NCBI RefSeq assembly: GCF_051622035.1 | Contig: NC_135360.1 | Span: forward strand, 7,802,001-7,866,000 | Source: Arctopsyche grandis | Lineage: Eukaryota > Arthropoda > Insecta > Trichoptera > Hydropsychidae | DNA: 64,000 bases | Direction: 5' to 3' | Part shown: positions 14,890 to 52,618 of the stretch, one piece after another | Numbering within the stretch: position 1 is the first letter of the stretch | Layout of the letters: each line of letters begins with the position of its first letter | Notes under the pieces: model-generated | Database searches by the model: none | Seen by the model: only the letters and a program-made list of their open reading frames with translations | What the model was told of the DNA's origin: nothing | Translations under genes and position numbers: made by a program

Positions 14890-15302
14890 ACCAGCAGCGT
14901 GGACTAGTGGTTACCATATAAGCTTTCGAACATAGTGGTCACGGTTTAGAGTCTCACTGGTTGCTGCTGATCAGACCTTGGTTTGTGACTACAGGTCGAT
15001 CAGATTTTGCCAATTTATCGGATTTTCATTAAAGTGGTTCCAACAAATTGGCAATCTTTATCCATTTCTCGCAATTTTTGAGTTTTCAGCATTTCGAATT
15101 TCGCTGACTCGTATAAAATGCGAGGCATTTGGCGATTTATATAATAAAAAAATGCTGTGAAAATGTAAAAGTTATCATATTTGTCAAATTTATTCATAGA
15201 TATCTCTATGATGATTTGTTAAAATTATTCTTAAACTGTATATCGATGTTTGTAATTGTTCAGAAAGGCGCATTGATGTTTACATGTTAGGCCTTCCTGG
15301 TA
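14890..15302 (+). mobile_element. tRNA-headed SINE with 3' hairpin, full length
   Basis: Head: AGCAGCGTGGACTAGTGG (box A region) and a degenerate box B near TCACGGTTTAGAGTCTC. Core: CAGACCTTGGTTTGTGACT, GGTCGATCAGATTTTGCCAA, GGTTCCAACAAATTGGCAA. The 3' part ends in the hairpin at 15261-15300, with complementary AAAGGCG/GGCCTTCC arms. About 410 bp; one of the most complete copies in the window. Confidence 0.8.
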
Positions 15303-16309
15303 TATGTACATATACATATACATATGTAAGTAAAAATTGATATTTATGCAACTAAATTATGTACGTTTATAATTATAGTACCAAATTTTATTTTAAGTAA
15401 AAAGTCCATTTAAATATGTATGTATATGTCACAGTGAAATGATATTTCAAGTGAAAATATATTTTCACTGACGTTTCATTAAAATCATAACCAGTTACAT
15501 TTTCAGGGTTGGTTTTATTCATTTAAGATAAGATTTTTAGGGTTGTTATTATTTAGGGGTTAGGATAGGTTAGGTTAAGTAAGGGTTGGCCCTATTAATT
15601 TATGATTTTCACTAGTGAATATATGTACATATGTACGTCAAAAAAGGCGACTAGTCGCGTATTGGTTCGTGTGAAAACTTGATATGATATTCGCTTACTT
15701 AATAAATAAATGCATTGTATCTTGACCGGTCTCGAGGATATTACGGCCAGCATCATTAGGATGTTACCAATTTCCCGGCCGTTGTAAATGAACCCCAACA
15801 TTAAATAAACAATCGTACATAGGTGCGCAGCGGCCCAAAGTTGGACATCTAGTTTAATTGAATTTGAAAATATTGACTTGTTCGAAAGTTTGTATTACTT
15901 TTGGGAGTAGAGGTCGCCGAAATAAGCTTCATCTACACAGCGAGCTCGGCTACGAGATAGTATTAACAATTTTAATTATATCTTTGGGTGTTGGGTGTGC
16001 TTTTGACGGCTGCCGTCAAACGTCGCGTAACGTGAGCCGACAGCAAAGAGTTTCGTTACATTTTGGCGTTTCGGACGCGGAACAAAGGATACCAATTAAA
16101 GTTTTGACGTCAAATCCCCCCCCCGAAACTTTTTCGTCCTGTTGTTTCAAGCGATCGCGTCTCAAATTTGAGACGATCGACGTTCACTGATAGCCTTCGG
16201 GGTGTGTATGTACATAAGATACAGGGTGGTGCAGAGTTGGCGCTCTTTTGGCTGGAAAGTTAGTTTCTCTTTCGATCATTCTTTGAGGGTGTGTTTGATT
16301 TGGGTGTCT
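15303..16309. other. Non-coding, no gene recognised
   Basis: AT-rich, with a CpG-containing stretch near 15930-16200. A 110-residue open frame (15858-16190) has no recognisable domain and is rejected. ATATTTCACTTGA-type inverted pieces near 15440-15475 are minor. Confidence 0.4.
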
Positions 16310-17040
16310 CGTTGTTTTTTTTCTTTATCTATGTATGTACGTACAAACAATAGTTGAAGTTTTGTGACTATGCGAAAATTCGAACTCGAGATTTTGACTG
16401 ATTAGAACTCGAAATCGATCACTGATCAGGTTTTCATGATCTGCATAGAAAAAATGTGTATGTGTGTCTTGTGTATTTTGGAGATTTTTCGAACACCGTT
16501 AGTTCTATCGAACTGAAACTAAGTATCGGTTACAAAAATGTTTATCGATACGACGTAAATTTTCAAATTGGCCTGAAATGGTACCTCTCCTTATTCAATT
16601 ATCAATTTATCATTGGGAGATATGATTCAATTATCTCCCAAACCGCTCAACAGATCGGGCTGTTTTTTATACGTAGTAGAAATTATAAATATTATATATT
16701 AAAGTTTTTTAAATATTTTTACCTCAACCGGATGTAGTACTTTTACTCTGGAGGATCGAGGTTTTTTATTTTTTCTCGGTAATATTTCAGTGTAGTGCTG
16801 AACTGAAATTTCATACCTATCATTTTATGCTTGGTACTAAGCTATACATATTTATATATAATTTGGTGAATACCCGTCAATCGGAAGTGGCGCATTTTTA
16901 TTTTAATCAAATTAATACAAGGATTGTGAATAACATGATTTTTTTTGATCGGGAAGAGCATGTCCTTATTTAAAGGGTCGAAAAAAATTGTAAAAGAAAA
17001 ATCAAACAAGAGTAAAAATCATTAAACCGGAAGTGCCATA
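16310..17040 (+). repeat. Periodic ACCGGAAGT repeat, copy 2
   Basis: Same order as copy 1: TCTATGTATGTACGTAC, AGTTGAAGTTTTGTGACTAT, GAACTCGAGATTTTGACTGA, then GGTACCTCTCC, with variants of ACCGGAAGT at about 16726, 16882 and 17025. It ends at the antisense tail of the next SINE. Confidence 0.65.
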
Positions 17041-17044
17041 AACC

Positions 17045-17575
17045 ATATGCTATTTTATTTATTTTTATTTTTTATTGTTACAATCAATATACACTCGTCA
17101 TTACAGATCGCTCCAATGCGACGAGTGTACGATAATGGTCAGAAATACAATAATACATATATGTTACAATCAGAATACATAGCATATAACAATTAATCAG
17201 TACAGAAATAATAATCATAGAGACATCTATGGATTATTTTTAGATTTTTGTGTACAATTATTATTACAATTTTTATACATATAATAAACACGAAATTATA
17301 GAGATGTCTATAGAGATATCTAAAGATTTCAGATTACTGTGCATAATTTTTACAAATTATACACACAGATTTTGTGACAACGGGAAATGATCTAATACCA
17401 ATTTTCAGGAACCGTTTCAACAATGATCAGATAAAATTGGCAAACTCTGATAGAGAAATGGTCGATTTGGAGTCAAACCCCCAAACCTAACCAGCAGTTT
17501 GACGAGGACTTGAACCTTCGACCTCAGTGGTGCTAAATACATATATACGCTACCATTAAGCCAAACTGCTGGCTT
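17045..17575 (-). mobile_element. tRNA-headed SINE, antisense, with 3' hairpin
   Basis: On the minus strand the head is at the 17575 end (AGCCAGCAGTTTGGCTTAATGG for the A region; box B-like GGTTCAAGTCCTCG near 17500-17520). The core follows (TTTGCCAATTTTATCTGATC, ACGGTTCCTGAAAA). The 3' portion carries a hairpin at 17091-17128 with arms ACACTCGTC/GACGAGTGT, a different stem from most other copies but the same loop type. Confidence 0.75.
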
Positions 17576-17984
17576 ATGTATACGCCGAAAGGCATGCATC
17601 ATGTTAAATGCTTAAATAAAAATTGAAAGCAAACCTTGAAGATGAAAATGACCAAGTTGAGATATATGTATGTAACTAATAATTTCTCTGCTCTGAGAGT
17701 AAATGCCGTGTATTTCTTTTTATTATTATTTGTTCCGTGCTTCATTTGGAGCTCATTGATTAACGGATCAACAACAATAAACTACCTCGACCACCACTTA
17801 CTGCATCTTTTACTCCGATCTCAAAAATCCTTACCTCTTACGTCCACGCTACAATTTTTTTAAATATCAAAACCTTCTAGTTCTATTGTTTATCTATTCA
17901 CTTACACATTTCAAAGTATGTATGTATTGTATTATTATAATTAATACACAAAAAATGAATAAAAAATTACAATAACAAATTAAT

Positions 17985-18040
17985 AACCAATGTAACCTTA
18001 CAGGTTGCCCCAATGCGTCACACCAATCTTACAGTTAAAC
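17985..18040 (-). repeat. Orphan LINE/SINE 3' hairpin (antisense)
   Basis: On the minus strand this reads TGTGACGCATTGGGGCAACC then TGTAAGGTTACA. It has the same loop as the 3' hairpin of the LINE just downstream, with complementary but different stem arms. It is a remnant 3' end of another element lying back-to-back with the 5' side of the intact LINE. Confidence 0.6.
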
Positions 18041-18235
18041 CAAGAACAGTAAAAAAATATCAATCGTTCATCTAATTCAAATAGCCTCGTGTTGAATCTC
18101 ATGAATATTTTATTTTATTTCTATAATAAATAAATAAAATGAATAAATAATAATAAACCAATGTACATATATACAAACAAATTCATATCTGTGCTATCGT
18201 TGTGTCTGGACGTGTTAAATCGTTCGCATTCTACC

Positions 18236-19294
18236 ATGGAGGATATTGTTACTATAAGCCAGAGAATACTCGCGGACCTTTCAAAAAAAGGATCTGGTGC
18301 CAATGTCCTTACCAAGGACAGGGTGCGATACATCAGCGACGAAATTAAAAATATAGTATCCATCGCACGCGTCGCTTTTAATAACCTGGCCTCGCTAAAA
18401 ATCGCTGTGGAGTCCCTCCAGACTATCCACACTGATGTCGGTGAAATAAAGAGGATGATGTGTCGTCCCTTTCCAGCAGCTCTGGCTCCAGCTGTTTTTG
18501 TTGAACCTACAACTCTGCAATCGGGCGAGGTAACATTACGAGAACTCTCCACACTGTCAACTGAATGTAACAATACTACAGTACATAAACAAACACCTGT
18601 CAGATGCCCGTATGACGTTATAGCGGCATCCTCTACCGTTTCACCTCCGCCTTATTCAGCTTCAACTTCACTCGCGTCTGCTTTAGCTTCAGCATCTACT
18701 CCTGGGTGTGCTACTGTTTCTGCTTCTACTGTTTCTGTTTCTGCTTCTCCTACTTCTCCTATAAAACCTGCGAAATCTTACAGTCAGGTCGCAGCGCTAT
18801 CTTCTACTGCTTCACCTCTGCCATCTTCATCTTCAGCTACACTTACATCAGCTTCTGCTTCAACATCTGATTATGTTCCTGTCTCTTGTGCTCCTGCTTC
18901 TGCTTCTACTGTAGATCCTTCAAATTCGTTCAGTCAGGTCGCTGGGACTTCTTCCGGGAGACTGCCATACACTCGTGGATCTGGAGCACCTGATAAAACT
19001 TTACAGGTGGCCACTATTCCGAAATTGAAGAATGTACACGTTTTTAATTTGGCAAATAACTGCACTTGTGATACTGTGAAACAGTTCGTATTAAATAAAA
19101 TTAAAAATAAAAGAATCAACGTTTCTCAGGTTGCTAAAACTGACATGTGCTCGTCATTTAAAATTAGTGTAGATACTGAAACTTTTAATATAATTATCAA
19201 TCCTGAATTTTGGCCTATGGGTACTGGCATAAGAGAATGGTTATTTCTCAAAAAAATCTCTTCGAAACCGATTGCCCAAACCCGTGACCCGTAA
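18236..19294 (+). CDS. LINE ORF1 protein (352 aa)
   Basis: Probably an RNA-binding/chaperone-type accessory protein of the retrotransposon, acting in the ribonucleoprotein with ORF2. I chose ATG 18236 (context CTACCATGG, start MEDIVTISQRIL) over the upstream in-frame ATG 18161, because the extra 25 residues look like UTR. Residues 1-80 are charged with hydrophobic spacing and may be helical. Residues about 110-265 are Ser/Ala/Thr/Pro low complexity in which SQVA recurs (YSQVAAL, FSQVAGT). The C-terminal ~95 residues form a compact domain ending with FKISVDTETFNIIINPEFWP and GTGIREWLF, like the C-terminal domain of CR1/L2-group ORF1 proteins. No CCHC zinc knuckle is seen. The last 23 nt overlap ORF2 in another frame. 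Family placement is from motif memory. Confidence 0.85.
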   Translation: MEDIVTISQRILADLSKKGSGANVLTKDRVRYISDEIKNIVSIARVAFNNLASLKIAVESLQTIHTDVGEIKRMMCRPFPAALAPAVFVEPTTLQSGEVTLRELSTLSTECNNTTVHKQTPVRCPYDVIAASSTVSPPPYSASTSLASALASASTPGCATVSASTVSVSASPTSPIKPAKSYSQVAALSSTASPLPSSSSATLTSASASTSDYVPVSCAPASASTVDPSNSFSQVAGTSSGRLPYTRGSGAPDKTLQVATIPKLKNVHVFNLANNCTCDTVKQFVLNKIKNKRINVSQVAKTDMCSSFKISVDTETFNIIINPEFWPMGTGIREWLFLKKISSKPIAQTRDP

Positions 19295-22115
19295 CATTAA
19301 ACTTTATTATCAAAATGTGCGGGGTTTAAATACAAAACTCAAGGAATTCTACAACAACGCCGCTTCTAGATCTATTGACGTCCTTGCTATTACTGAAACA
19401 TGGCTAAACTCATCTGTACATGATGCCGAAGTACTTGACAGCAGTTTCAATATATATCGCCATGATAGATCTGCCAGAGGTGGTGGTGTTCTTCTAGCAG
19501 TTAAAAATACAAATATTATTTCGGTTGAAAGACTTTGTCATCTTGAGGACATTCATGAATGTGTATGGCTAAAACTAAGATTTGTTAACATTCCTTTTTT
19601 TATATACATATGTACTATTTATTTTCCACCAAGATCTCCACCAAATATTTATAAGCGATTTTTTGATTTAATTATATCTAATTATTCACATTTAAGTAAT
19701 GGTCGCATTTTTATATCTGGAGATTTTAATCTGAATTCTTCTAACTGTTTTCCTGATGACCTTAATTTTTTTATATCTTTATTCAACTTAAAACAAATTA
19801 ATACTATTCGAAACTATTTTAATAATTCCATGTTGGATTTTCTATTAACAAATTTAGATTGTCAGAATATTATTATTTCAAATTCAGTTGATTCCTTGGT
19901 TCCTGAAGACAGCTATCATCCTGCTCTTGATATTCATTTAAAATTAACTATAACTTATTCCTCACTTCGTTTAATAAATAACTGTCTTAATACCTCTGTC
20001 CTAAATGGATGGTTATTTACAAATGTTGATTTCAAATATTTAAATGATATTCTTTGTAATTGTCAATGGGAGCGAGTTTTTGAGTGCAAAGATGTTAATT
20101 TGGCCCTCTCTAATTTCTATGACATTATATATTCTATTTTTAATGATTGTTTTCGGTTGAAAGGATTAGTGACGAGTAAAAGGATTTATCCGCCTTGGTT
20201 TACTAAAGAAATTATTAATCTCTTAAAAAGTAAATATCAAACACATAAACTCTGGAAGAAATCGAGCAATCCTCTTATCTTAAATAATTTCCGTATTTTA
20301 CGTACGGAAATTAAGAAATTAATTAATAATGCATATAATGTTTATGTAGCTGATTGTGAAAGTTCCATAGTTAAAAACCCTAAGAAATTCTGGAACTTCA
20401 TTAATTCTAAACGTGTAAATCGTGTAAAGTCGACCATTATGTACAATGATTCTGGATTGTTAGAGGGTGATCAAAACATTGCTAATGGATTTGCCGACTT
20501 TTTTAAATCAGTTTTCAATAATCTTACTGATTCCATGGAACCTACCAATGACTCGGAATTTACTTTCCCCACTTTAGCGATTAATCATCTTGACTCTTCC
20601 GATCTGAAATATGGCTTTCTAAAGTTAAAAAATATTTATTCTTCCGGTCCTGACTCCATCCCTAATTACATCCTAAAAGGATGTGAGGTTAGTCTCTTAG
20701 AACCTTTAAAATTCATTTTTAATTTAATTCTAAGGAACTCTTCATTCCCCAATTTATGGAAATGCTCTAAAGTAACTCCTATTCATAAGAAGGACGATAA
20801 ATCTTGTGTAAGGAACTACAGACCAATAACTATCTTGTCAGCGCCAGCCAAAATGTTTGAGGTAATATTACACAGATACATTTTTAATCACTTTCAAAGT
20901 ATGCTCATTGATCAGCAGCATGGCTTTCGTCCGGCCAGATCAGCCATTACCAACTTGTTATGTTTCTCTAATGACATAACCAGCACTTTGGATTGTAATA
21001 ATCAAATGGATGTAATATATACTGATTTTGAGAAGGCGTTTGATAAAGTTGATCATAAAATTTTGGTTAGTAAATTAAGTTTTATTGGATTTACTTATAA
21101 TCTTGTTGGTCTTTTTATTTCTTATTTACAGGATCGACGTCAATTCGTTAAGTTTGGGAGTTGCTTTTCTTATGAGTATGTTGCCACTTCTGGGATTCCC
21201 CAAGGATCAAATCTTGGCCCTTTATTATTCCTAATATTTATCAACGATATTCAATCTTCTATTCACCATTCTAAATTTTTATTATATGCGGATGACTTAA
21301 AAATCTATAAGAGAATAATTGATTTACCTGACGCTCTTTATTTGCAAGAGGATTTGAATTCTATTTATGAATGGGCTAATGTTAATAAACTTCCCTTCAA
21401 TATCCTAAAGTGTCGGGTCATTTCTTACTCTCGTTCTCGTTCTCCTATTAAATATCCGTATAAATTTCATGATTCTCTTCTTCAGAGAGAATTATTTATA
21501 TCTGATCTGGGAATAGTCTTCGAAAATAGTTGGAGTTTCAACATTCACATTGAGAATATCTGTGATAGGGCAACAAAAATCCTTGGATTCGTAATCCGTA
21601 ATTCGTCCGAACTAGGGCTCACTGCCATTCGTCTCTTATATTGTACATTAGTTCGCAGTGTGCTCGAGTTTGGCTCCATTATATGGTCTCCCTATCAACT
21701 TCGTTACTCTCTAATGTTGGAACGAGTCCAAAGGAAATTCCTTAGATTTTTATATCTGAAGACATTTGGATTTTATCCATATCTGTTCCCTAGTGCCTTT
21801 GTCTTGGGATCTTTGGGTTTCAACTCCCTGGCAAAGAGAAGAGATTTATTTCTTGGGAAACATTTCGTAAAATTACTTAGAGGAGAGATTCACAATCCCA
21901 CTATCCTGGAGAAACTAAAATTCTGGGCCCCGGAAAATCGTAGAGTTTTAAGAAAACATGATATATTTTTACCAATTAGGGCTAAATCAAACGTGCTCAT
22001 GAACTCCCCCCTCTCGAGAGCTGTTCGACTCCTTAACTTACTGGCACATTACTTGGACCTATTCGATGCCAGTTATGTTGAGTTGGTGGAACACATCCTA
22101 AATAGCACGATATAA
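19272..22115 (+). CDS. LINE ORF2: endonuclease-reverse transcriptase (947 aa)
   Basis: This is the retrotransposition enzyme. It nicks target DNA with an APE-type endonuclease and copies the RNA by target-primed reverse transcription. The N-terminus (YYQNVRGLNTK, residues ~12-22; TETWL; RGGGVLLAV; SGDFNL ~149-154; DSYHPALDI ~213-221) is the endonuclease with its metal and catalytic residues in place. The RT follows: SGPDSIPNYILKG, KVTPIHKKDD, NYRPITIL, QHGFRPARS, TDFEKAFDKVDH (~584-595), GIPQGSNLGPLLFLIFINDI, and the catalytic LLYADDLKIY (YADD 672-675). It ends in the usual C-terminal region (IIWSPYQLRYS, LSRAVRLLN). No stop or frameshift is seen. The start overlaps the end of ORF1 by 23 nt, suggesting termination-reinitiation or leaky scanning. 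Clade call: CR1/jockey group, exact clade not fixed. Confidence 0.92.
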   Translation: MPKPVTRNIKLYYQNVRGLNTKLKEFYNNAASRSIDVLAITETWLNSSVHDAEVLDSSFNIYRHDRSARGGGVLLAVKNTNIISVERLCHLEDIHECVWLKLRFVNIPFFIYICTIYFPPRSPPNIYKRFFDLIISNYSHLSNGRIFISGDFNLNSSNCFPDDLNFFISLFNLKQINTIRNYFNNSMLDFLLTNLDCQNIIISNSVDSLVPEDSYHPALDIHLKLTITYSSLRLINNCLNTSVLNGWLFTNVDFKYLNDILCNCQWERVFECKDVNLALSNFYDIIYSIFNDCFRLKGLVTSKRIYPPWFTKEIINLLKSKYQTHKLWKKSSNPLILNNFRILRTEIKKLINNAYNVYVADCESSIVKNPKKFWNFINSKRVNRVKSTIMYNDSGLLEGDQNIANGFADFFKSVFNNLTDSMEPTNDSEFTFPTLAINHLDSSDLKYGFLKLKNIYSSGPDSIPNYILKGCEVSLLEPLKFIFNLILRNSSFPNLWKCSKVTPIHKKDDKSCVRNYRPITILSAPAKMFEVILHRYIFNHFQSMLIDQQHGFRPARSAITNLLCFSNDITSTLDCNNQMDVIYTDFEKAFDKVDHKILVSKLSFIGFTYNLVGLFISYLQDRRQFVKFGSCFSYEYVATSGIPQGSNLGPLLFLIFINDIQSSIHHSKFLLYADDLKIYKRIIDLPDALYLQEDLNSIYEWANVNKLPFNILKCRVISYSRSRSPIKYPYKFHDSLLQRELFISDLGIVFENSWSFNIHIENICDRATKILGFVIRNSSELGLTAIRLLYCTLVRSVLEFGSIIWSPYQLRYSLMLERVQRKFLRFLYLKTFGFYPYLFPSAFVLGSLGFNSLAKRRDLFLGKHFVKLLRGEIHNPTILEKLKFWAPENRRVLRKHDIFLPIRAKSNVLMNSPLSRAVRLLNLLAHYLDLFDASYVELVEHILNSTI

Positions 22116-22310
22116 ATTTTTCAATCTTATTTCTTTGTTTTTATTTTGTGTACATATTTTTTACTTGATTTTTATTATTTTTTTATGATGTTTTTTTTTT
22201 ATTTATGATTTTTATTATTTTCTTATGTTTTTTTTTATTTATGATTTTTATTATTTTTTTTATGATGTTTTTTTTGTAATTTTTATGATTTTTATTATTT
22301 GTATTAAAAT

Positions 22311-22349
22311 CACATTGACGCTTTGGGGCAACCTGTCAAGTCCCTGTGG
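22311..22349 (+). repeat. LINE 3' terminal hairpin
   Basis: Arms CACATTGAC and GTCCCTGTG pair at seven of nine positions around a loop containing TTTGGGGCAACCTGTCA. The loop matches those of the SINE tails and the orphan tail at 17985, while the arms differ. It is probably the RT recognition structure. Confidence 0.65.
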
Positions 22350-22390
22350 TATTGATTTTTTAAAATAAAATAAATAAATAAATAAAAAAA

Positions 22391-24372: not shown

Positions 24373-27300
24373 TTAAAAGGCAGAATTATATGGAATCACA
24401 TGTGCCATTAAGGGGATTCCATATCTTATACCGCTAAGACTCTCTATGGATTTCCAATTATTTGTTGTATAGTTGTATTCATAAACATCGCCTTTTACCA
24501 AATCTCCATTTTTTCCACCTAAAAATTAAATTTTACATAATAGCGTACATTGGCACCTTGATTAATTTAGTTGTGTGTTAAGCTCACCTATGCAAAGCAA
24601 TTTGTTTCGAAAAACACAAAGACTGAGTCCGTATAGAGGCTGCGGTAGGTTGACGATATCAGTCCACATTTTTCCTTTGGGATTATAGTACTCAACACTG
24701 TCAATAGTAGTAGTAGTAGTATTGTCCATATTCAAGATTTGACCACCAGCGACATATATATCCCCATAGAATAGTACGCTCTAAAAAAAAATCAATCAAA
24801 ATTTTAAAATTGGTCATCATTAATCGTAACCCATTATTATGTAAGTATTTATGAATATTCACCGAATGACCTTCTCTTCTCCGATTCATTGAAGTGCAAA
24901 AGGACCAAGAATTGGTCTTTTTTGAGTATATTTGGAGTTTATTTGTGGTTCTTTCATTAGTGTCATTTGTTCGCCCGCCCATCACATAAATAGTGTTGCC
25001 AATAACAACAGAAGAGTGTCCAGCAACTGCCAGGTTCATTGGAGCTACATTCATATTCCATTTTTCTTTCTTCTTTTTTTCCATATCATTTTCCTTATTA
25101 TTCCACCTGTTCGAAAGCAATTGGACGATAAATTAAATTTCCGAACTTCTATATACAATAGTATTATTCTTGCACTTCATGAACACCTTTCAACTGATTT
25201 CATAATGCCATTTTCTTCATTATATCCTCCTATGACGTATACATAACTGGATGATTTGTCAGAGATTTTCACTGCTGAAGAATAACAGCGTCTTTCGTTT
25301 AACGGTATCAACGATTCTTTTGTACCTTTTTCCAAGTTGATACAGTCAACCTAACAATAATAAAATTCGTTTTATTGAAACTTAACGAAAAAAACAACTT
25401 CACTGAAATATTACCTTCTTAGATTGTGACCCGCCAATGACTAATAAATAGCCTGCTACCACAGTTGATGCATAATTTAATCTAAAGAAACTAACATCTT
25501 TACTTAAGCTCCATTTATTTTTTTTGCAGTCAAATATATCAAGTGTGTTTCGAGTCTATAGACAAATATACGATTAAACATTATTATTATTATTAGCTAC
25601 ATCAAACACTAGTACTATAAAACTTACATCATATTCCGATGATCCGACTAGTGCTAATTTTTCGATTTTCCAACGCCGATGGGTATTTAATATTTTCTTT
25701 GACAAAATCGATTCGACCGTGACATTTATCATTTTTTTGTATTCCGGTGTTGAATAAAAGTTTGGCAGAACGTCGGTGACGTTTATCTGAAAATAGTGCT
25801 ACAAGTTATTAAAAATTTTCATAAAATGTGCACATTTATAATATTTAATTTAACATATTTACCTCCATCGTTAACGCTGTTAACTTAACGTAGCGCAAGA
25901 GCTCTGGTAATTGAAGTTTTCGTGGTTCTTCGTCTTCCTCCACCCACAATTTAATTGATTTCAATACGTGCATTTCAGAAGACACATTTAAATATTCCGA
26001 TTTGATGATTTCGATCAATTGAGAGATTGGCAGCTGAAGAAAATCTTTGGTTATGTACAACTGAAATAACAAGAACTGAATAATATAAAGTTAATTCTTC
26101 ACAGAACATCTTTTATAATCAAAGCTCACTTTCTCAAAATGGTTTAGGATCAAATCCATTGCTGTTGATATCGCCGTTGGATCATTCGAAAGCGTCAAAA
26201 CTTCTAAGCAGTTTTGTTTGTTTATTGTTTTATAATGTATAGTTTTTATCTTCAACTTGGTGGCTAGCTCCTTAAATTTATCGTAGAGGTCCTTGTCGAT
26301 GTCTGAAATCACATTTCAAACATAAATTTGTACAAAAATATATGATATGATACAGTTTTTACACTTCAAATTCGTCATTTTAGAAATCAAATTCGTCGTT
26401 TTACAAATCAAATTCTTCGTTTTACAAATCAAATTCGTCATTTTACAAATCAAATTCGTCATGTTGCAAATCAAATTAAACAATTGAATGTATTTTATAT
26501 AAAAAAAATGAGAATTTGTTTTTAATCAGACCTTTACTTTAATTAATACCATTATTAATTTCATACCTAATTATGAAATTATATTATTTATTATACTATA
26601 TAATAAATAATATATTATTTATTATAATACTATATAATTATATTATTTATTATAATACTTTATAATTATATTATTTACTAAAATAATATAATTTAATACT
26701 TAATTATATTATTTCATACCTCATAAAAGTATGAAATTAATAATGGTATTAATTAATAAATTATTTATTTAATAATTAATTAATTAATTAATGAACAGTC
26801 TGAAATTGCCTGCAGCTGCAGCAAATGAACTTTTATAAATTATAAATAATACATTCTCTATGTATGTATAATATGTATATATATATATTCTCTTTACATA
26901 CATATTGTATTAAATATTTTCTTTTTCTCTATAATATTCTCTATAAAGTTCCCTATGTACATATAATAAAATTAATATTAAAAAAATATATCCAATTGTT
27001 TAATTTCATTTGCAACATGACGAATTTGATTTGTAAAATGACGAATTTGATTTCTAAAACCACGAATTCGATTTGTAAAACGACGAATTTGATTAGTAAA
27101 ATGACGAATTTGAAGTGTAAAAACTGTAGCTGAATTATTTGGATGTATTTAATAGCTCTTACCTATAATTCCAGTGTAACAAAATTTCAAAATGGCATCA
27201 ATGATTACATTGTCGAAACGCGCAAATATGCCGTTCACATATTTGACACTTTCTGTGTCTAATATTTCGCTACATGCTGAAAGCACAACCTTATGGGCGA

Positions 27301-31108: not shown

Positions 31109-32186
31109 CCTAAATTCAATAGACGTATTATTATTTAACATCCCTATTAGAAAAGACTATTTAATTTTTTTCGTAAGCTAATATCCATCGGAATACTAAA
31201 AGCAATAATGTTTTTCAGCAAAAGGAGCATTATTTTGTAATATAGAAAAAAAAATTAAATATAACAATATACATATGTACATATACATATCATTTAATGA
31301 AAAAAAAATATCCTTTGATGCATATATATGTATGTATATTAGTCGAATTATTTAATAAAATATGTAGATAATATTAGGGGTTGAAAAAAAACGGACCATT
31401 GTAGTTTTCTCGGTGAGCATTTTGGCTTTTTTCGCTCGATCGCGTGGCCCATTTCATCCCTTCCTTGTCCCGCTATCGGGAAATCCGGGAATTCGGGATT
31501 ATGATTCCGTAATGATTTCCGTCTCTCGGGATTTTTGGCCCCCGGGGCGTTAAACGGCCGTTGCGCAACGGCAAGGCAGCCGCGTGACGTCACAACAAAT
31601 TGCGGGCAACTTTAATTAAGAGGAATTAAACCGTAATTTATTTGAAAGCATTAACATTCCTTCGCCGGGACGAAAACGTTAACCTCCCAACCCCCCTCAC
31701 TCCCTTTATCCTCTCCGTTCCCGTCTCGGCGCCCCTTTCGTCCTCGAAGCGACCCTTGCCGAATTCTTCGATTCGAATTTCCCGCGCTTTTCCAGCGACG
31801 AACTTCCAATGACGATCGCTGTGCCAACGGCGATTAAGAGGAATTTATAATTGCCATTTATTTGATTTCACCCTACCCTTCTGTCGCCTTAGGTTTAATC
31901 GTTCGATAATTTTTCCTACCTTTAAATTGATAATTCGATTTCGTTGTTCAACGCCCTAACTATTCCTTTCCCTAGAGCAATGTCGAAACATTATAAATAT
32001 TTGAACTTTTTAAGGTTTAAATTTTGATTATGAAATTGCTTTATATGTATTTAATTTATGATAATGTATATTTGGTATCCTTGACTATTTGAAAAACACT
32101 TATTGTATAATGCAAGTACTAAATGTTGATTAGTTGATACCCAACAAAGTAAACAGATACTATTTCCCAGCATAGATTCTACATAT
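31109..32186. other. Non-coding; GC-rich island with TGACGTCA
   Basis: The block at about 31400-31930 is markedly GC-richer than its surroundings and non-repetitive. It holds CGGGAA/TTCCCG sites, CCCCGGGGCG, and a perfect CRE-type palindrome TGACGTCA near 31585. There is no open frame with a known domain. It looks like a regulatory island or a promoter-type CpG region. Confidence 0.35.
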
Positions 32187-32443
32187 GAGCCGTTATATTT
32201 GAAAGTGGTGGAAAGTCCAATTTTCAGTTTCAAAAACATTATTTCTGTTTAACTTAATTCACAAATTGTAATCACTTCTTTTTATTTGATATTTCCAGAA
32301 TCTCAGAAAGGCAGAATAAACGTATTACAAGGCCACCAGTATTTTTAATTTTTTTTAAACGCCAAACATTATATTTAATGTTTTGCGAAATATTTCTCGA
32401 AATAAGGAAAGTGGACTCATGCCACTTTCAATTATAACGGCTC
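32187..32443. mobile_element. MITE, GAGCCGTTATA family (copy 3, full)
   Basis: Bounded by GAGCCGTTATATTTGAAAG and its inverted copy (CACTTTCAATTATAACGGCTC region). 257 bp. Followed almost directly by the right half of another copy. Confidence 0.8.
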
Positions 32444-32509
32444 TTATTATCTCTCACTAATAACTCAAAGACTTTTTATATACGTTTTCAAGGAACTGTT
32501 TGACAAGTT

Positions 32510-42804: not shown

Positions 42805-43310
42805 TTATTTATTTATTTTACAAAAATCAATTAATCAAGCACACTCGTCTAACAGATTGCTCCAAAGCGACGAGTGTGCTAAAAAGATTAAGAAGTACAA
42901 TAGTGAAAAATATAAGTTAAAAAACAAATTACATATACAAATATACAAATTAAATAAGGAAATGATAACTAAATAAAACATGAAATCATAATAAAATCAT
43001 AATTAAAAACACTAACTCAACCATTCTAAATGGTCGCGACCTCCATATCTTAGGAATTGGTGCAGATAATGAAGAGAGACATTACAAATGTCAATGGCAC
43101 CATCCAGTGAATTTAAGAAACGTAGGCCGCGAGGAATGGGAGAATAACTTAATGCCACAGTTCAAGCCAAAGGAGTGTGAAAAAGGGGACGATGGCGGGT
43201 CCATATCACACTCTCTAGAGCATGAAGGCCCAACTCAGCCAGGATAGACGGACAGGAGATACAGCCTCTAATCTACAGATACAGCCTCTAATCTAATCTA
43301 CCTCCATCTA
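42805..43310 (-). mobile_element. LINE C-terminal and 3' end fragment (antisense)
   Basis: On the minus strand a decayed coding piece, PRGLRFLNSLDGAIDI, lines up with the last residues of the intact ORF2 (LSRAVRLLNLLAHYLDLFD). It is followed by a 3' UTR with a hairpin at 42840-42878 (arms CACACTCGTC/GACGAGTGTG) and a TAAA-type tail. About 22 bp at the 5' side (ACAGATACAGCCTCTAATCT) is tandemly duplicated. Confidence 0.6.
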
Positions 43311-43639: not shown

Positions 43640-44004
43640 TATTTTATTTTATTATTATATTTATTTTTACATATAACAGAAAGGCCTTAGCCCAAATGCG
43701 CCTTCCTGGCCATAAACAACGATAAACAATTTATAGAGTAATTTTTATAGACAATTCTAGAGACATCTATAGATAAATTTGACGAATTTGATAAATTTTC
43801 ATTGTCGCGTCATATTTTTAAATGAAATATAGAAGAGGCTTTTAAAAACAACGAATTTGAGATGCTGAAAAATTTAATAGGAATGGGTAAAGGTTCTATG
43901 AAAATCAGATAAATTGGCAAACTCTAATAGAAAACGATCGACCTGGATCAGTCGGTTTGAAAGCACTATATACAATGCAACCACTAATTTATGCTGTGGT
44001 ATTA
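43640..44004 (-). mobile_element. SINE (antisense), internally deleted
   Basis: On the minus strand: a head near 43985-44004 without box B, then core TTTGCCAATTTATCTGATTT and a 3' hairpin at 43679-43708 whose loop has lost several bases. The T-rich antisense tail begins at 43640. Confidence 0.6.
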
Positions 44005-44060
44005 GATATTCCGTATTCGCAATTTTCGTGGCAACATGCCCCGCCTCGAAAGGATACTTC

Positions 44061-45048
44061 ACTGGTCAAATCCAATGTTTGGTTATAAAACTTTTTCGTT
44101 TTTTTTTTTTTTTTTTATACTCCACTGTTTTCGTTCGACTTATTATTATCAAATATTTTTCGGCAACATTTTTATTTTAAGCGTAATGTAATTATGAAAT
44201 TTTTCAGCCGTGCGCTTTTTCCATTTTAATATTTTTTTTTTGCTTTTTATTTTATCTCGCCGGGATTTGTTTTGACACTCGTTGTTAACGATCGCTTCTC
44301 TCATTATATCGCAATTAGATCTCTTCTCGAGATTTCTATTTTGCTTAATTTAGTTTTCATCCCTGTCTCCCGTGCCGTTTGTTCCATCAACATCATCCTC
44401 CTCTACCTCATCTTTTCGCAGCGCAGATTTTTGCGAAGCGATTTCCTCGCTGATTTTCTTTTGTGTTGTCCGAGAGAAAAGTGTGTTTTTATTTATTATT
44501 ATTATTATTTCAAAGCCGTCTGGATAATCAGATTTAACGAGTCGCTTAAATTTAAAATATGAATAGTAAATTGCGATTAATTAATTTCGGTCCTCATTAT
44601 ATGAGACAACGCCAAAGGACGATTTATGTAATGTAATATGCATTGATAAATCACCAGGTCCTCCCATTAATGCCCCAAGGTATGCAATTTATCCTTCTGT
44701 TTCATTTCGTCCGATTTTCTCCGAATTACCGTCTACTATTGGATCTGGAATATCGCTGGTATTGTAAATTATTAAATTTTTATAAAATTAATTTAATAAT
44801 ATTGTTTATCACATTATCACAACTATATATAGTATGATATACAGACATACATAAGTGACATTATTAAGTTCAAATTAATGGATATGAAATACAATATATT
44901 TATATTAAACTGATGTTATTTTTCAACAAAATGGCCTTTATAATTTCTGAAAAGTACCTGTTGTCGGACCCTTCAAACTCGCAAACTTAAACCTTTTATT
45001 AAATAAAAATCACGTGATCATGGATCGATGCCAAGATATAGTAGATAT
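44061..45048. other. Non-coding, no gene recognised
   Basis: AT-rich with a poly-T run near 44100; nothing recognised. Confidence 0.4.
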
Positions 45049-45262
45049 GAGCCGTTATATCTGAAAGTGGCGGAAGTCCAATTGTCAGTTCCAAAAGCAC
45101 TATTTCTGTCTGACTTAATTCACAAATAATCACTTATTTTATTTCAATTCGTCCAGAATCTTGGAAAAAAGAATAAACGTTTTACAGAACATCATTATTT
45201 TTATTTTTAAACTCAAATCATTATATTTAATGTTTTGCGAGATATTTCTCGAAATGAACGAC
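45049..45262. mobile_element. MITE, GAGCCGTTATA family (copy 5, truncated right)
   Basis: Starts GAGCCGTTATATCTGAAAG and follows copy 3 through TTTTGCGAGATATTTCTCGA, then diverges before the right inverted end. Confidence 0.7.
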
Positions 45263-45744
45263 TCATATTGTATATACATGCACATATACATATTTATATG
45301 TATAATAGTCACGAATCAGTCAACATCTTTCAATCGAATGTGAGAATAAACTTTGAGTTATTAAATTGAGCATTGCGTAGCAACTAGAGAAAAAATAATC
45401 TTAATAAACATCATGTTATAATATTTAGATTTAAGATTTTTGCTCAAAGAATTCAAATTCATATTTGCCAGCAACCCTTTTTGATAAAAAGTACATCACA
45501 CATCTACTTATGTACATACAGTATTTTCATCCCAAGAATTTCCCGATGAAGCAAGTTTGGCTGATTTGTTGAATTAATTTTTTGTATGAACGTACATATT
45601 ATACGATTATCGAATTTTTTGACAAACCCATTCATAACATATGTACATTTAACTCATTTCCTTTAAAGCTTTAATACAGTACAATAATATATGTATGTAT
45701 AATATATATGTTTGTAATATATATGAATGTATATATAAACTAGG

Positions 45745-46127
45745 GGTTAGCATATATGCTTTCAAACATAGTGGTCACAGGTTCGAGTCCCACTGGTTGC
45801 TGCTGGCCAGACCTTGGTTTGCGACTCCAGGTCGATTTGCCGATTTATCTGATTTTCATTGAAACGATTCAAACAAATTGACAACCTTCACCCATTTCGA
45901 GTTCTTCAACATCTCGAAATTTGACGATGTATGTATGTATATATAAAACAAAAAAAAAAGCTCCGAAAATGTAAGTTTATCAAAAATGTTTCTAAGATGC
46001 GCATTTGTCTCTGTGATTCTTTGTTAAAATTATTCTCAAAATTGTATAAACATATGTATGTAGATGTTTGTAATTGGCCAGGAAGGCGCATTTGGGTTTA
46101 CCTGTTTGTTTGCCTTCCTGGTATATA
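45745..46127 (+). mobile_element. tRNA-headed SINE with 3' hairpin
   Basis: Box B GGTTCGAGTCCC is perfect; box A is partly replaced by TATA-type sequence. The core matches the copy at 14.89 kb (CCAGACCTTGGTTTGCGACT, GAAACGATTCAAACAAATTG). The 3' end has the best hairpin in the window (46079-46121), ten-base arms CCAGGAAGGC/GCCTTCCTGG. Confidence 0.8.
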
Positions 46128-47339: not shown

Positions 47340-47450
47340 CTGTGTAGATGGTTTGGTTAGTTCAGATCGACCGTCTCCTGTTGGATTTTGTCAATTTATC
47401 CAATATTGTCAAAATAGTTGTGACGATTTCAATAAAATTGAAATTTTATT
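47340..47450 (+). mobile_element. SINE core fragment
   Basis: AGATCGACCGTCTCC and GGATTTTGTCAATTTATCC, then a GACGATTTCAATAAAATTG-like piece, resemble the SINE core; head and tail are absent. Weak. Confidence 0.35.
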
Positions 47451-47466
47451 TTATTTACATACATAC

Positions 47467-48773
47467 TGTTATGTATCTCACTTATTCCTCGTAGTTCCCA
47501 CAATAATCAAATTCTGTTATGTACCTCGCTTGTAAATGTAGTTCCCACAATAATTAAATTCACTTTCTCACATTCATGTACGTGAGTAACAAGTCCATTC
47601 AAATTCCTGTAAAGGGGATAGTCAGATAAGACAGGAGTGCCGGACTTTGCCCTACCCAGGAATGCTGGACTTTGCCCAACCCCAAAAGATACAAATTACA
47701 CTGAGCAACAAAAAAAAATACCAGAGTGGAGACTAGCCAATCTTCACTAAGTTTGACCCACTGAATTCGAATATGATACTGATTTTTGTTGGTGGATGAT
47801 CGTTTACGAGATATGAGCGTTTAAAAAAATCCGCGATTTTTACAGTTTTTTGGCTTTTGCGGTCTTTAACTCAAAGTTTAGGATTGTTACGCTCAAAGTG
47901 AGTATTGGAATCAATAGTCAGATATTTTTCCTATTAATTGTTATATTTCATTGCCTTAAAATACTTCTAATTAATTGTCTAGCGAATTTTAAAAGTCAAA
48001 AATATACTTTTTTTTACGGATGTTTTTTCCGTGCTATTTTTCATTTATTTGGCAAATTTTTTATTTCACCACGTTTATAAGGATTGGTTTTCTATCTCAA
48101 TATTTTTTTTTTATCTAAACGTACTAACTAAAGCGGTAATTGCAATTTAAATGCTTTCGTTGTATATATGGTTGTATCGCGTAATATGTTAGGGCAAGCG
48201 AGATGGCATATAATCCACCTCACAGAGTACAGCGGTCGGACTACATGCCATCTCGCGTAACAATCCATAATTTTGAGTTAAAGACCGCAAAAGCCAAAAA
48301 ACTGTAAAAATCGCGGATTTTTTTTAATGCTCATATCTCGTAAACGATCACCCACCAACAAAAATAAATATCATATTCGAATTCAGTGGGTCAAATTTAG
48401 TAAAGATTGGCTAGTCTCCGCTCTGGTAACTCAAAAACGTAATTTTTTGTTGCTCAGTGCTATTTATATAGATCACGATTCGATCACATAAGTTAGTCAT
48501 CACCATTGAGACTCCGAGAGTAGTAGTCATCACAATGGAGACTCCGAGAGTGGTAGTCATCACCATCGAGACTCCGAGGGTAGTAGTCATTAATATCGAC
48601 CCCTCAAGTGACGGTCAGCACAGCAACAGAACCAATGCTAATTAGTGAAAAAAAGTTCTAATCGAAAATATCTACCAATAACACAAATGTAACGATTTTA
48701 TGATAATAAATAAATCTTGGTTTGTTAACCAAGTAATTTAAAAAATATATAAACTGCGTTTTGGAACTTGACA
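47467..48773 (+). mobile_element. Candidate solo LTR interrupted by a palindromic element
   Basis: The region begins TGTTATGTATCTCACTT and ends AACTTGACA. It holds a direct duplication of about 48 bp (47466-47562, TAGTTCCCACAATAAT twice), two GGACTTTGCCC-type repeats, three 30 bp tandem units (48495-48584, CATCACCATTGAGACTCCGA type) and AATAAATAAA at about 48708. Such makeup is LTR-like, but no exact flanking duplication was found and no internal retroviral-type genes are present. Confidence 0.3.
47699..48459. mobile_element. Palindromic Tc1/mariner-type element
   Basis: Arms of about 195 bp (47699-47895 and 48262-48459) are near-identical inverted copies starting CACTGAGCAACAAAAAA, with TA next to the left end and one base away from the right end. 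The ~365 bp centre encodes nothing recognisable but holds a perfect 12 bp inverted repeat GCGAGATGGCAT/ATGCCATCTCGC (48198-48209, 48245-48256). The termini resemble those of the element at 53709. Confidence 0.8.
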
Positions 48774-48782
48774 GTACATTAT

Positions 48783-49207
48783 CCAACAGTATGGGTCGGT
48801 GGTTGCGTTTATGTTTAGCACCGAGAGATTACTGGGTTCGATCCCGTGCTAATATTATATTTAGTACTGCTGGGTAGACTTGGATATTTGTGACTCCAAG
48901 TCGATCGTTTCTTATCAGAGTTTGCCAATTTATCTGATTTTAATTGTTGAAACGGTTCTACAAATTGGCAAAAATAATCCTACCCGCTGTCACGAATATA
49001 TCTGAATTTGATTTATGGACAATATGTAAAAATGTATGTACAAGTCTAAGTCCATAGATGTCTCAATGGATTAATTCATTAATGTATTAATTGTTAATTC
49101 CGTGTTCTTCAGCCTCTGTAAATATAGTGATTTACGTAAGAAAATTGTTTGTAATTAATTGTCTAAGAAGGCATATTGGGGTCTACCTCTCACGTCTTCC
49201 TGGCTTC
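48783..49207 (+). mobile_element. tRNA-headed SINE, full length
   Basis: Head with box A region GGGTCGGTGGTTGCG and perfect box B GGTTCGATCCC. Core CCAAGTCGATCGTTTCTTAT, GTTTGCCAATTTATCTGATT. The 3' hairpin region is at about 49162-49202 with partly decayed arms (AGAAGGC and GTCTTCCTGG). Confidence 0.8.
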
Positions 49208-49239
49208 CTTCTTTATTGTGATGTGCTGCATATTAGAAA

Positions 49240-49533
49240 ATGTCAGCGTTGGTTCAAAAACTCAAAATTCATATTAGAGATTTTGATTTAGAAAATGAGC
49301 CTGGAAGAGGACGATGTAGAGGCCCTAAAAAGAGAATTCAAAGCAAATCCGATGATGACAATATAATAATTGTCAAACAAGATCGACAAATCTTGGTCCA
49401 GTACTCAAAGATGCCTAAAAAAATTGATAAAATCCAAAAAGAAAGAATTTGTGTTCCGCGTGCATTGTCCGGCTGCAACAAACGTAAACAAATCGACGTA
49501 TTGAAAGAGGAAAAACATTTGAGCTCATTTTGA
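49240..49533 (+). CDS. Unrecognised 97-residue open frame between two SINEs
   Basis: The predicted peptide is hydrophilic and basic, with no membrane segment or signal peptide: MSALVQKLKIHIRDFDLENE at the start, then a Lys/Arg/Asp-rich part (GPKKRIQSKSDDDN) and two Cys near the C-terminus. An in-frame stop immediately precedes the ATG, so it has no upstream extension without splicing. Its composition is more protein-like than the shadow frames nearby. It could be a scrap of a retrocopied gene or of a transposon, or chance. I do not recognise it. Confidence 0.25.
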   Translation: MSALVQKLKIHIRDFDLENEPGRGRCRGPKKRIQSKSDDDNIIIVKQDRQILVQYSKMPKKIDKIQKERICVPRALSGCNKRKQIDVLKEEKHLSSF

Positions 49534-49671
49534 CATGATTTAATAACTGAAAATGAGAAATGGGTTCTCTATTCGAATATAAAACGAAAAAGGCATCAGT
49601 ATTTTACACAATTCCGCGAAATTCGGGATTGCTGAAAAATCGAGATTTTTTGCCATTTTTGGTTGCCATTT

Positions 49672-49852
49672 TTTGGAACCGTTTCAATGAAAATCAGATA
49701 AATTGTCAAACTCTGATGAAATCGATGGACCTGGAGTCATAAATCCAAGGTCTGGCCAACAGAAACCAGTGGTATTTGAACCCGTGACCACTTTTTTTAT
49801 ACTAACATTATATATGTAATAACCACTAGTCTATTATGCTAGTGGTTAGAAT
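49672..49852 (-). mobile_element. tRNA-headed SINE (antisense, 5' part)
   Basis: On the minus strand: CTAGTGGTTATTACATATA (head), GGTTCAAATACCACTGG (box B region), CCAGACCTTGGATTTATGAC, TTTGACAATTTATCTGATTT, GAAACGGTTCC. The 3' tail is absent. Confidence 0.7.
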
Positions 49853-52255
49853 TTAATGGCCTTAAATATATCATTTATAAATATCATGTTGTATTTATAT
49901 GTGGTGATATAATAACGGCACAATCCCTTAATTGAGCGTTTAGATGGAATTAGGGCGCCAATTCCATAATCCGATAATTGCACTTTGCGTGTTTGGTGAA
50001 AAACGCTGTTTTTCTTTTACGTACTTTTTGTTTTCGAATGATTTTGCCAAATATATTACAATAGTGGTCGTTATCCATTGAAATAATATTCGGTTATCTG
50101 ATTGAATTATGTATATTATAGAGTGTGTATAGGAAAAGTCATGTTTTCCACAAAATACACGAAGCGCGGTTATCGGATTTAATTATGTTAACTACCCAAA
50201 TGACATAATTTTCAATTATACAAACATCTCCCATACATGAAACAAATCGTTTTGTGTTTTTAATTTGCACTAATCCTTCCATTTACGCGAACTACTTTCA
50301 CGAAGATTCACTTTTACGCGTTTGCTCGTATAATCCTTTGCTAAATTTCTTCATAAGTGTGCATCCGAGGCTCCGAGAAGTCATCCGAGAAGTTGGAATA
50401 ATGTCTAATTATATTTAAATCTGTAGCTTTCCAAAATATACCAAGTTGCACATTCACAGTGAGAATTCTCTATTTCGCCCATACATAAGATTTAATTTAT
50501 GTGGTACCTTCGTTGAACCAACTTAGCGAGTAAATTGTGGGATTACTCCAACGTTTGAGTAGATTTTCTTAACGAATTGGATGTATTGAAATAAATCGGT
50601 TTCGATTATCTGAATCATCTGTAATTAGTTTGGATAATTGGGTTTCTATTTCGATAAAAAAATATTTGAAGTAACCTTTAAACCTAGTCATATTTTTGAG
50701 ATAAAGGAATGCTTATATTGATTTGGATCACATTTCATAGAAGTTAATTAATTAAATTTGTCAAATTCGTAAAAGTTATTTAAATACATTGATTGAAATG
50801 TGAATTTAAATCAAATATACATACATACATATCTAATATATATGTAGTTTCGAAACAGACTTTGTATATAACTACTTTTGGTTCGTAGAAAAACAAATGA
50901 ATATTCAAATAAATTTAAATAAAATATAACTATTCAGATATTATAAATTTAATAAAATGTTTACTTTTAGATTGGCCATGCTTAAGCGGTTTCTATTACA
51001 AATACCGAGCAAATCCGGGTAAAAACACTAGTATAATATAATTAAGTAAGCGTTCAACTTGACTTTAAATAAAAATACTATTTGATTTAATGTTATCGTT
51101 CAACTGGAGGATTTTTGTCGTAAATAAATAAACGTGCAAATAAAAAGTGTTTAAATTAAATTCACTCCGTCCGTATTTGTCTGCGATTCGCTTTGATACT
51201 TTCGCTAATTGCACGTTTTCCTTTAAATATTTCAATTTGAATGTCTTCATTTACCTCTGAGCTTCTTCTCTAGTGAATTTTTCGCATATTGTCGAGCGCG
51301 TGGTACACTCGAGGGGTTAAGATTTGTGAGATCTCGTCCTCTGCTCACTTTTACGAGCGATACTAAAAAGAATATATATTTTCGTCGACGACAAAACCCT
51401 TCTCTTTTATTGCGCGTCGATCATTTTCTCTCATGTGTCTCTCTTTTTCTCTGTGTCCGTCCGTCTATCTTTGGAATTTTATTTATTTTCAGCCGCAGCG
51501 CGCTGAGATAAAGGGTAAACTTTATGCGATTTAAAATCTACAACATGTTCTGTGTATGGAATAATATCTTAAAACTGAAATATATTATACATATGTCACG
51601 TCCAAACTTATAATTGTTATACTATTAGTGACCAGGCTATCTACATATACTGAAATTATATTATATTTGATTTCTACATTTTAATAGCACATTACAATGT
51701 TTAATATCATATTTGAATTGGAATAGTAATAAGATTTTTGAAGTATTAAAAACAATTAAAATGAATTTTGTTCGTATGGCATAATAAATATCAGAATTCT
51801 TGACCTATATATTTCAGACCACTTGCTTTGCCGTCTCTAAGTATAAAAGTTAATCTAAAAGTTCCCTGCAAATATGGGTTATTGCTAAACTTTCAAGCAT
51901 TCGTGAAATTGAAGAGGAAAAACAATGACTCGCAGTCGAAGTAATTCTGTTTTTCAAATTTAAACTTTTTTTATAACATGATCGCATTTAAATATACTAA
52001 AATATAAATTTTATTATAGAAAAGTAATATAAAATATATTTAAATTATATTCGATTTTCGTTTTTTCCGGAATTTTCCAATTTTAAATCATATTTGGGTA
52101 AATTAGTGAACCCATTTCACTATTGATCATCAATTTATTAAATCTATTTATGCGTCTTATTTGTTTCAAATAATATTGTAATCGTAAAAATAAATAAGAA
52201 AGATATTTTATATGCAGATTTTTAATTATATATATGTATTTATTTATTTCATTAC
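49853..52255. other. Non-coding, no gene recognised
   Basis: AT-rich throughout; a less AT-rich patch lies at 51.26-51.52 kb. No repeat family shared with the rest of the window was recognised, apart from ATACATA microsatellite patches. Confidence 0.4.
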
Positions 52256-52257
52256 AT

Positions 52258-52618
52258 TTTATACCAGGAAGGCCTTACAGGTTTACCCTAATGCGCCTTC
52301 CTGGGCAATTATAAACAGCAGCATTTTTATTACACAAGTCGCTGTATAACGAGACACTGAAAACTCTCAAATTAACGAGACATCTATGAATTGTACATAA
52401 ATTTTTTTGTACATTAATCATACTCAAATAGTGGTGACTTAGCAGGTAGGAAGGTTTTAAGCCAAAGTCAAATGGGAACCGTTTCAACAATGAAATCAGA
52501 GAAATTGGCAAACTCTGACAGAAAACGATCGACCTGGAGGACAAATATCCAGGTCTGACTAAAACCCGGCGCCTCTCGGTGTTAGGCAGAAGCTTAACGA
52601 CCGAGCTATGCTGTTGGA
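52258..52618 (-). mobile_element. tRNA-headed SINE (antisense, full length)
   Basis: On the minus strand: CAACAGCATAGCTCGGTCGT (box A region), a degenerate box B near GAGAGGCGCCGGGTTTTAGT, the core (GATCGTTTTCTGTCAGAGTT, GCCAATTTCTCTGATTTC), and the 3' hairpin at 52264-52303 with arms CCAGGAAGGC and GCCTTCCTGG. Confidence 0.8.

Follow-up and report, generated by a model that had tools for sequence, protein, structure and literature searches.

How the enzyme of a long interspersed nuclear element (LINE) discriminates its own RNA and that of the short interspersed nuclear elements (SINEs) that parasitise it has, to our knowledge, been worked out for few LINEs. The question is raised by a stretch of 64,000 nucleotides from the trichopteran Arctopsyche grandis (contig NC_135360.1 of assembly GCF_051622035.1, positions 7,802,001 to 7,866,000 of the forward strand; hereafter the window), in which at least eight LINEs and SINEs had been predicted to end in a hairpin with a conserved loop and with stems that differ between elements and still pair. 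What keeps the arms of these stems complementary, and which enzymes read them? We confirm that hairpins with compensated stems are real, we assign them to five LINE families (A to E) and to SINEs that resemble two of these families in their tails, and we consider it likely that one clade of stringent-type LINEs uses the hairpin for recognition of the 3' end.

The analysis utilised a sample of 264 kb, made up of the 64-kb window and 20 pieces of 10 kb taken at round coordinates, from a genome of 475.7 Mb in 189 contigs. A covariance model built from 12 hairpins, among them four of the eight window or window-like hairpins, was applied at a threshold of E<=0.05 and matched eight hairpins in the window, in agreement with the number first proposed, and 35 in the sample, which we sorted as 15 E-type, 8 D-type, 6 C-type, 2 A, 2 B and 2 unclear. 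Every hairpin that the original prediction had named was located (46079 and 22311 on the forward strand; 17091, 42840 and 17990 on the reverse strand, on which that at 52264 is also read), and a ninth, decayed hairpin at about 49163-49203 (+) lies outside the model matches. Five of the eight tails in the window belong to SINEs and three to LINEs, namely LINE-A at 22307+, a LINE-B fragment at 17984- and a LINE-D fragment at 42837-; the hairpins at 17990 and 42840 are, by comparison with other loci, the ends of two further LINE families and not of SINEs. No Rfam family matched at the gathering threshold.

The loop motif, at no more than one mismatch, was found 42 times in the 264 kb, with at least 8 of the 10 arm positions paired (G-U allowed) in 24 cases. 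The reversed sequence gave 26 motifs, of which 3 had arms paired to this degree, and three order-1 Markov controls gave 22-26 motifs, of which 0-1 did so. Some 22-26 such motifs are thus expected by chance in 264 kb, so that single weak matches are meaningless, and this expectation is what speaks for regarding the hairpins as a chance or alignment artefact, with accidental inverted repeats arising in AT-rich repeats. We regard that explanation as vanishingly improbable because arm swaps, column shuffles, slid alignments and reversed sequence all fail to reproduce the signal; chance inverted repeats are ruled out by the arm swaps together with the reversed and Markov controls. Across the genome the exact 14-mer TTGGGGCAACCTGT occurs 1320 times and its reverse once, but in the window the exact loop is present only twice (22323+ and 18000-), the other hairpins carrying variants of it.

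Pairing of the stems was examined without circularity by picking loci on the loop alone and reading the arms at set distances from CTGT; offsets of 2 and of 3 nt downstream of it were compared, and the better one was kept by the same rule for data and null. The 64 distinct loci so obtained (76 with identical rows) have on average 6.5 of 10 Watson-Crick arm pairs, with 22 loci reaching at least 8, whereas 2000 random swaps of their arms, uncorrected for the kinship of copies, gave a mean of 4.07 (standard deviation 0.21) and a maximum of 4.81. We judge some 16 of the 64 to be chance loops, and the contrast between real and swapped arms is therefore diluted. Among 12 representatives of our choice, with several from each class, pairing reaches 90.5% of 179 cells against 65.6% in shuffles, and the covariation score of 0.730 (shuffles, 0.245) was equalled in none of 500 shuffles, with slid controls at 0.04-0.22. 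The 34 distinct model matches, in an alignment fitted by the model, behave in the same way (87.1% of 505 cells paired; covariation 0.639 against 0.230; 0 of 500 shuffles). When the five LINE families are compared, 56 of 60 stem cells are paired, a figure that falls to 41 or fewer in all 44 rearrangements of the 3' arms and is reached in none of 20000 column shuffles, and 48 of the 120 comparisons between family pairs at single positions are double changes with pairing kept. Covariation across genomic copies, which had been proposed as a check and was run here with programs other than R-scape, is therefore present in all four of these sets. The classes are also related to one another, stems B and C being identical at 19 of 24 arm letters, and for this reason they look to have diverged from one ancestral hairpin, with D the most distant.

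Complementary arms may in principle arise from mutation and not from selection, if a template switch within an imperfect palindrome transfers the sequence of one arm to the other and so produces double changes in a single step. The stem differences between classes do lie in blocks, and the 48 double changes with pairing would suit such copying, but G-U pairs at many positions, and the unpaired positions of LINE-A that recur in all 14 of its copies, are features that correction of this kind would erase. The similarity of B and C is, moreover, what stepwise compensation would leave behind, and the internal loop and inner helix described below are conserved while the arms change, for which selection is required anyway; we therefore think the mutational explanation unlikely and prefer compensatory change under selection.

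The loop itself proved to be more than a loop, and the concept of a conserved loop survives in a refined form that combines an internal loop with a short inner helix. The sides of the internal loop are conserved (GCWU / UNAR) and the inner helix reads [GA]G[GA] .. [UC]CU, its three counted pairs being formed in 12 of 12 aligned rows; one of these pairs varies at both of its positions (GC/AU), another at a single position (GU/AU), and the third is invariant. All ten folded representatives show the outer stem and a 4-bp inner helix, with an internal loop of 3x3 to 4x4 in most and one that is partly closed in LINE-B, and eight of the ten fold clearly better than shuffled sequence (z -2.9 to -8.9). 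A plain unpaired loop of 20 nt is ruled out by the presence of the inner helix in all ten folds. So too is a strict GNRA tetraloop, the tip being GCAA or GCGA in A, B, D and the SINE-2 of the window and AATT, TTTA or TTCGT elsewhere. The stem of the LINE in the window pairs, as had been claimed, but imperfectly, with 6 bp, a 2x2 mismatch and a further 3 bp.

Each stem class could be matched to a LINE, a second check that had been proposed. The 30 exact-loop loci comprise 14 of LINE-A, 15 of LINE-B and one that is unclear (L002), and classes C, D and E stand at the 3' ends of their own LINEs. The window LINE represents family A, and the loci L016, L007 and L011 represent C, D and E, respectively; the 3' region of LINE-D is common to L007, L024 and the window element at 42837-, and no match to the second open reading frame (ORF2) was found upstream of the class B hairpin at 17984-. 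The features of the window are collected in Table 1. A possible sixth stem class, seen at L002 (1501-1514 region), L022:9631-9678 and perhaps L026:7666-7710, is too decayed to claim.

Table 1. LINE and SINE features of the window, with the hairpins matched by the covariance model
Feature	Position	Strand	Model match	Description
LINE-A ORF1	18161..19294	+		377 amino acids; no Pfam match
LINE-A ORF2	19272..22115	+		947 amino acids; endonuclease PF03372, reverse transcriptase PF00078, PW..W motif (residues 308-328) between them
LINE-A 3' hairpin, class A	22307..22352	+	22307+	stem CACATTGAC/GTCCCTGTG, 2x2 mismatch; followed by AAATA-rich tail
Class B 3' hairpin, taken as LINE-B fragment end	17984..18029	-	17984-	stem GGTGTGAC/GTTACATT; class B follows LINE-B ORF2 at other loci
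Class D 3' hairpin, LINE-D fragment end	42837..42881	-	42837-	stem GCACACTCGTC/GACGAGTGTGC; same 3' region follows LINE-D ORF2 in L007
SINE-2 copy	17087..17570	-	17087-	tRNA-like head, A and B box with 0 mismatches; shared central body; class D-type hairpin 17087-17132
SINE-1 copy	14889..15303	+	15257+	A box 1 mismatch, B box 2; decayed class E hairpin 15257-15303
SINE-1 copy	45731..46124	+	46075+	B box 0 mismatches, A box 1; hairpin 46075-46124, CCAGGAAGGC/GCCTTCCTGG
SINE-1 copy	43673..44010	-	43673-	B box not found; shortened hairpin 43673-43712
SINE with different, possibly tRNA-like head	52261..52618	-	52261-	A box 1 mismatch, B box not found; shared central body; class E hairpin 52261-52307
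SINE fragment	48855..49211	+		decayed class E hairpin near 49163-49203

The five families are related through ORF2, whose C-terminal region is 37-53% identical in amino acids over 133-185 positions. In a tree of ORF2 proteins of the five families and their relatives, A to E fall within one clade of 20 rows (100/99), which also includes proteins from other sources. A, B and E form a group (98/74, the branch not being starred), D pairs with P0008 (99/95) and C with P0009, P0010, P0013 and P0015 (100/92), all of these partners being from other sources. The C and D lineages thus seem to have split from A/B/E earlier than from the elements of other sources, which would make the shared inner structure either old or exchanged.

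Families A, C and E are present in many near-identical copies with a long open ORF2, the counts being lower bounds because only the best candidates were scored. For LINE-A all 48 scored matches to ORF2 are full length at 99-100% identity; for LINE-C all 96 are at 99-100%, 19 of them in a frame of 988 amino acids; and for LINE-E 75 of 85 are at 85-100%, 13 in an open frame of 979 amino acids, the other ten, at 60%, looking like LINE-A and five of them overlapping LINE-A matches. The LINE-E end GGCCAGGAAGGT/GCCTTCTTGGTG was recovered in 8 of 9 fetched ends (seven by script and one, L092, by eye, its 5' arm being cut), while in L093 the class E hairpin was not shown; ten further LINE-E pieces of 501 bp end before the hairpin or reach only its start. 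The LINE-C end GACCATTGTGGC/GCCACAATGGTC was recovered in 21 of 23, the exceptions being L082 and L098; among the recovered ends, L101 departs from this sequence by a single letter, as does L091 in its outer arm. These ends carry AAATA-rich repeat tails after a conserved hairpin, in place of the poly(A) alone that characterises LINEs of the relaxed (L1-like) type. Some copies lie in unusually long single frames: three LINE-E matches (C6:740070-741440, C12:2015068-2016438 and C10:15425000-15425854) in frames of 1476-1777 amino acids against the usual 979, and two LINE-A copies in frames of 1310 and 1317 amino acids.

Several partnerships between LINEs and SINEs had been suggested; two are supported by the sequences, LINE-E with SINE-1 and LINE-D with SINE-2, and none was seen for A, B or C, only SINE-1 and SINE-2 bodies having been searched. 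The hairpins that accompany a match to one of these bodies (score >=7), some of them decayed, have E-type arms in 10 cases and D-type arms in 6, and a class A, B or C stem was found in none of these 16. In a comparison of 24 arm letters between real SINE copies, pre-grouped by their arms, and the LINEs, the E-type arms share 14-21 letters with LINE-E and 4-15 with the others, LINE-E being best in 11 of 11, and for the D-type arms the figures are 16-19 letters with LINE-D and 4-8 with the other LINEs, LINE-D being best in 5 of 5. The SINE tails thus match the 3' ends of LINEs of the same genome, and do so in a structured hairpin with conserved pairing that lies close to the 3' end and is followed by a short repeat tail. 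A 5' head with both the A and the B box of RNA polymerase III, as expected of a tRNA-derived SINE, is present in the copies at 17568- and 45739+; the B box was not found in 4 of the 8 elements examined, some of which are cut or decayed, and ARAGORN called no tRNA. Since the heads differ, some with clear boxes, and the central stretch is common, head, body and tail look like separate modules. The LINE-D fragment at 42837- and the SINE-1 at 43673-, on the same strand, have nearly identical 3' flanks (CTGGCACTCGA[G/A]TTCTCGT) and therefore lie within copies of one repeat or share a target.

Do such pairs reflect the preference of each enzyme for its own stem? They may instead merely record where tails were picked up, in one network of cross-mobilisation in which every ORF2 protein reads the inner structure, ignores the letters of the stem and mobilises any carrier. 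We hold this to be possible but doubtful. Internal loop and inner stem are indeed present in all classes, and an informative case is provided by L082, a LINE-C copy with an open frame of 988 amino acids that ends in a SINE-1 tail and hairpin. The join of LINE-C and SINE-1 was found without mismatch at 7 places in the genome (control, 0). Five of the seven copies (C2, C3, C6, C8 and C11) continue as far as a C-type hairpin, beyond which their flanks differ, and therefore represent a LINE-C lineage with a SINE tail in its 3' untranslated region, moved by the terminal hairpin; the idea that the join is a chimera moving as a unit was dropped for the same reason. The other two (C6:1814 kb and C6:1847 kb) end at the SINE-1 hairpin with an AAATA-rich tail, and as they have the same flank they represent one duplicated insertion event, with a repeat of 4-5 nt (TCCC or ATCCC) at its ends and flanks that we read as the left and right parts of a reading frame of another LINE. 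One LINE-C insertion thus started from a hairpin of foreign class, by the LINE-C protein or by the LINE-E protein in trans. The event is single, however, it would be explained equally by the LINE-E protein acting in trans or by a transcript that terminated in the SINE tail, and the terminal C-type hairpin was used in 5 of the 6 insertion events read for this lineage. Were the network true, an element might change its LINE partner, or a LINE its tail, without loss of function, and the insertion at the SINE-1 hairpin would be a natural tail swap by the enzyme of LINE-C itself.

For recognition of the 3' end we propose the following scheme, with the reading of the hairpin by the reverse transcriptase (RT) inferred from other LINEs. 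The ORF2 protein of each family would bind the hairpin at the 3' end of its own RNA, and target-primed reverse transcription would start immediately downstream, in the AAATA-rich tail. The outer stem, of about 9-12 bp, would be required as a helix with its letters largely free, so that families may drift to different stems through compensatory change, and the internal loop with the inner helix would be the conserved read-out. SINE-1 and SINE-2, with tRNA-derived heads and a shared central body, would carry the tails of LINE-E-like and LINE-D-like elements and be mobilised by them; here, too, we infer protein binding, priming and the assignment of each SINE to an RT. Largely free stem letters, kept pairing and a fixed inner structure fit the results for the zebrafish LINEs ZfL2-1 and ZfL2-2 (PMC4176376): both tolerate replacement of the stem (ZfL2-1 at about half the rate), replacement or mutation of the loop abolishes or sharply lowers movement, and a broken stem stops ZfL2-2. 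Their proteins bind the hairpin via the region between endonuclease and RT, of which a conserved part is proposed to deal with the stem and a variable one with the loop (PMC4176376). In the linker that would correspond to it P307, W309 and K321 are invariant, and H325 and W328 nearly so, among 13 aligned ORF2 proteins (LINE-A and 12 relatives). The two tryptophans of LINE-A are spaced by 19 residues, as are W325 and W344 of ZfL2-2 by their published positions.

The hairpin might alternatively act in another step of RNA metabolism, such as 3' end formation by the AATAAA-rich tail, stability, export or binding of the ORF1 protein. AATAAA-containing tails do stand closely behind the hairpins in the LINE and SINE ends inspected. 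The hairpin is, however, common to SINEs whose A and B boxes suggest transcription by RNA polymerase III, which needs no cleavage of the mRNA type, and the match of LINE and SINE class by class is what recognition by RT predicts; we give this alternative little credence.

Several observations nonetheless weigh against recognition of the hairpin by RT and selection on its pairing. In the 12-row set the double-change pairs (10 of 15) and the number of pair types (24) are unremarkable, being reached in 142 and 120 of 500 shuffles, and of the three inner pairs a single one varies at both positions. LINE-A (z -1.5) and the decayed L011 copy of LINE-E (z -1.6) fold hardly better than shuffles, the tip of the inner loop is variable and so provides no strict GNRA motif, and the stem of LINE-A has the same two unpaired positions in 14 of 14 copies among the exact-loop loci. 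Quasi-palindrome correction could keep arms complementary too. The stretch placed as the variable part of the binding region (vTBR) is only 24-32% identical among A, C and E, compared with 47-61% for the RT, so that special conservation of this putative region is not supported in these three families, although the read-out is conserved. Among more distant LINEs from a bacterial and archaeal collection (21 loci at 21-34% identity, many of them in metagenome-assembled genomes and eukaryote-like by our own reading), the loop was present at one mismatch or fewer in none of the 15 whose 3' part was inspected, and 7 of the 15 have a string with two mismatches; viral contigs held no relative. The support as a whole consists of sequence and folding evidence.

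The window holds other repeats and a probable host gene. Two arrays of 21-bp units (26351-26496 and 26983-27128), inverted with respect to each other and sharing 94% identity over 146 bp, lie on either side of an AT-rich core and look like a fold-back element. A dispersed repeat of up to about 260 bp occurs in both orientations at 5636-5894, 14284-14444, 32180-32447, 45042-45258 and 54926-55194, with pairwise identities of 73-83%, and no match to the hairpin model lies within these five copies. A Kelch-like open frame at 24701-25120 (-) is, in our reading, probably part of the exons of a host gene.

The five families would constitute a natural series of stem swaps: the read-out is constant, the stems differ and are compensated, and two of the families have SINEs as apparent partners. 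As three of the five have many near-identical copies with an open ORF2, they offer a panel within one host for testing recognition of stem against loop and the fidelity of partners, and the covariance model finds such elements without recourse to protein homology. Our searches of the open-licence literature brought up no case in which several LINE families of one genome have a common inner structure but differ in their stems. The hairpin of the eel element UnaL2 is reportedly other than the present one. UnaL2 resembles the system described here in that the LINE mobilises a SINE via a shared 3' sequence with a stem-loop (PMC4176376, PMC3747384); changed stem letters impair it (PMC4176376). The SINEs HaSE1, HaSE2 and HaSE3 of Helicoverpa provide an insect parallel: they have a central domain in common, heads and tails that can be exchanged, and a tail matched to a LINE; that LINE is of the RTE type, and the words hairpin and stem are absent from the main text of the report (PMC3272025). 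Among the closest known systems are ZfL2-1 and ZfL2-2, which likewise have a 3' stem-loop near the end of the element; there the helix is needed and the loop is decisive, as proposed here, and the linker between endonuclease and RT has a P-W...W motif of 19-residue spacing to which that of LINE-A may correspond. They are, however, two LINEs of the L2 clade with different loops, whereas here five families have one read-out and different stems. Shared LINE and SINE tails, with compensated stems and a conserved loop, are already known from the L1 elements of monocots, for which Ohshima described a 3' hairpin shared by LINE and SINE with compensatory stem changes and conserved loop letters (PMC3747384). 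The monocot elements belong to the L1 clade in plants and have the loop UCU and the 3' flank CGAG, whereas those of Arctopsyche belong to an APE-RT clade in an insect and have an internal loop with an inner helix; beyond the monocot case, they comprise five coexisting LINE families and, on the evidence of their tails, two SINE partnerships.

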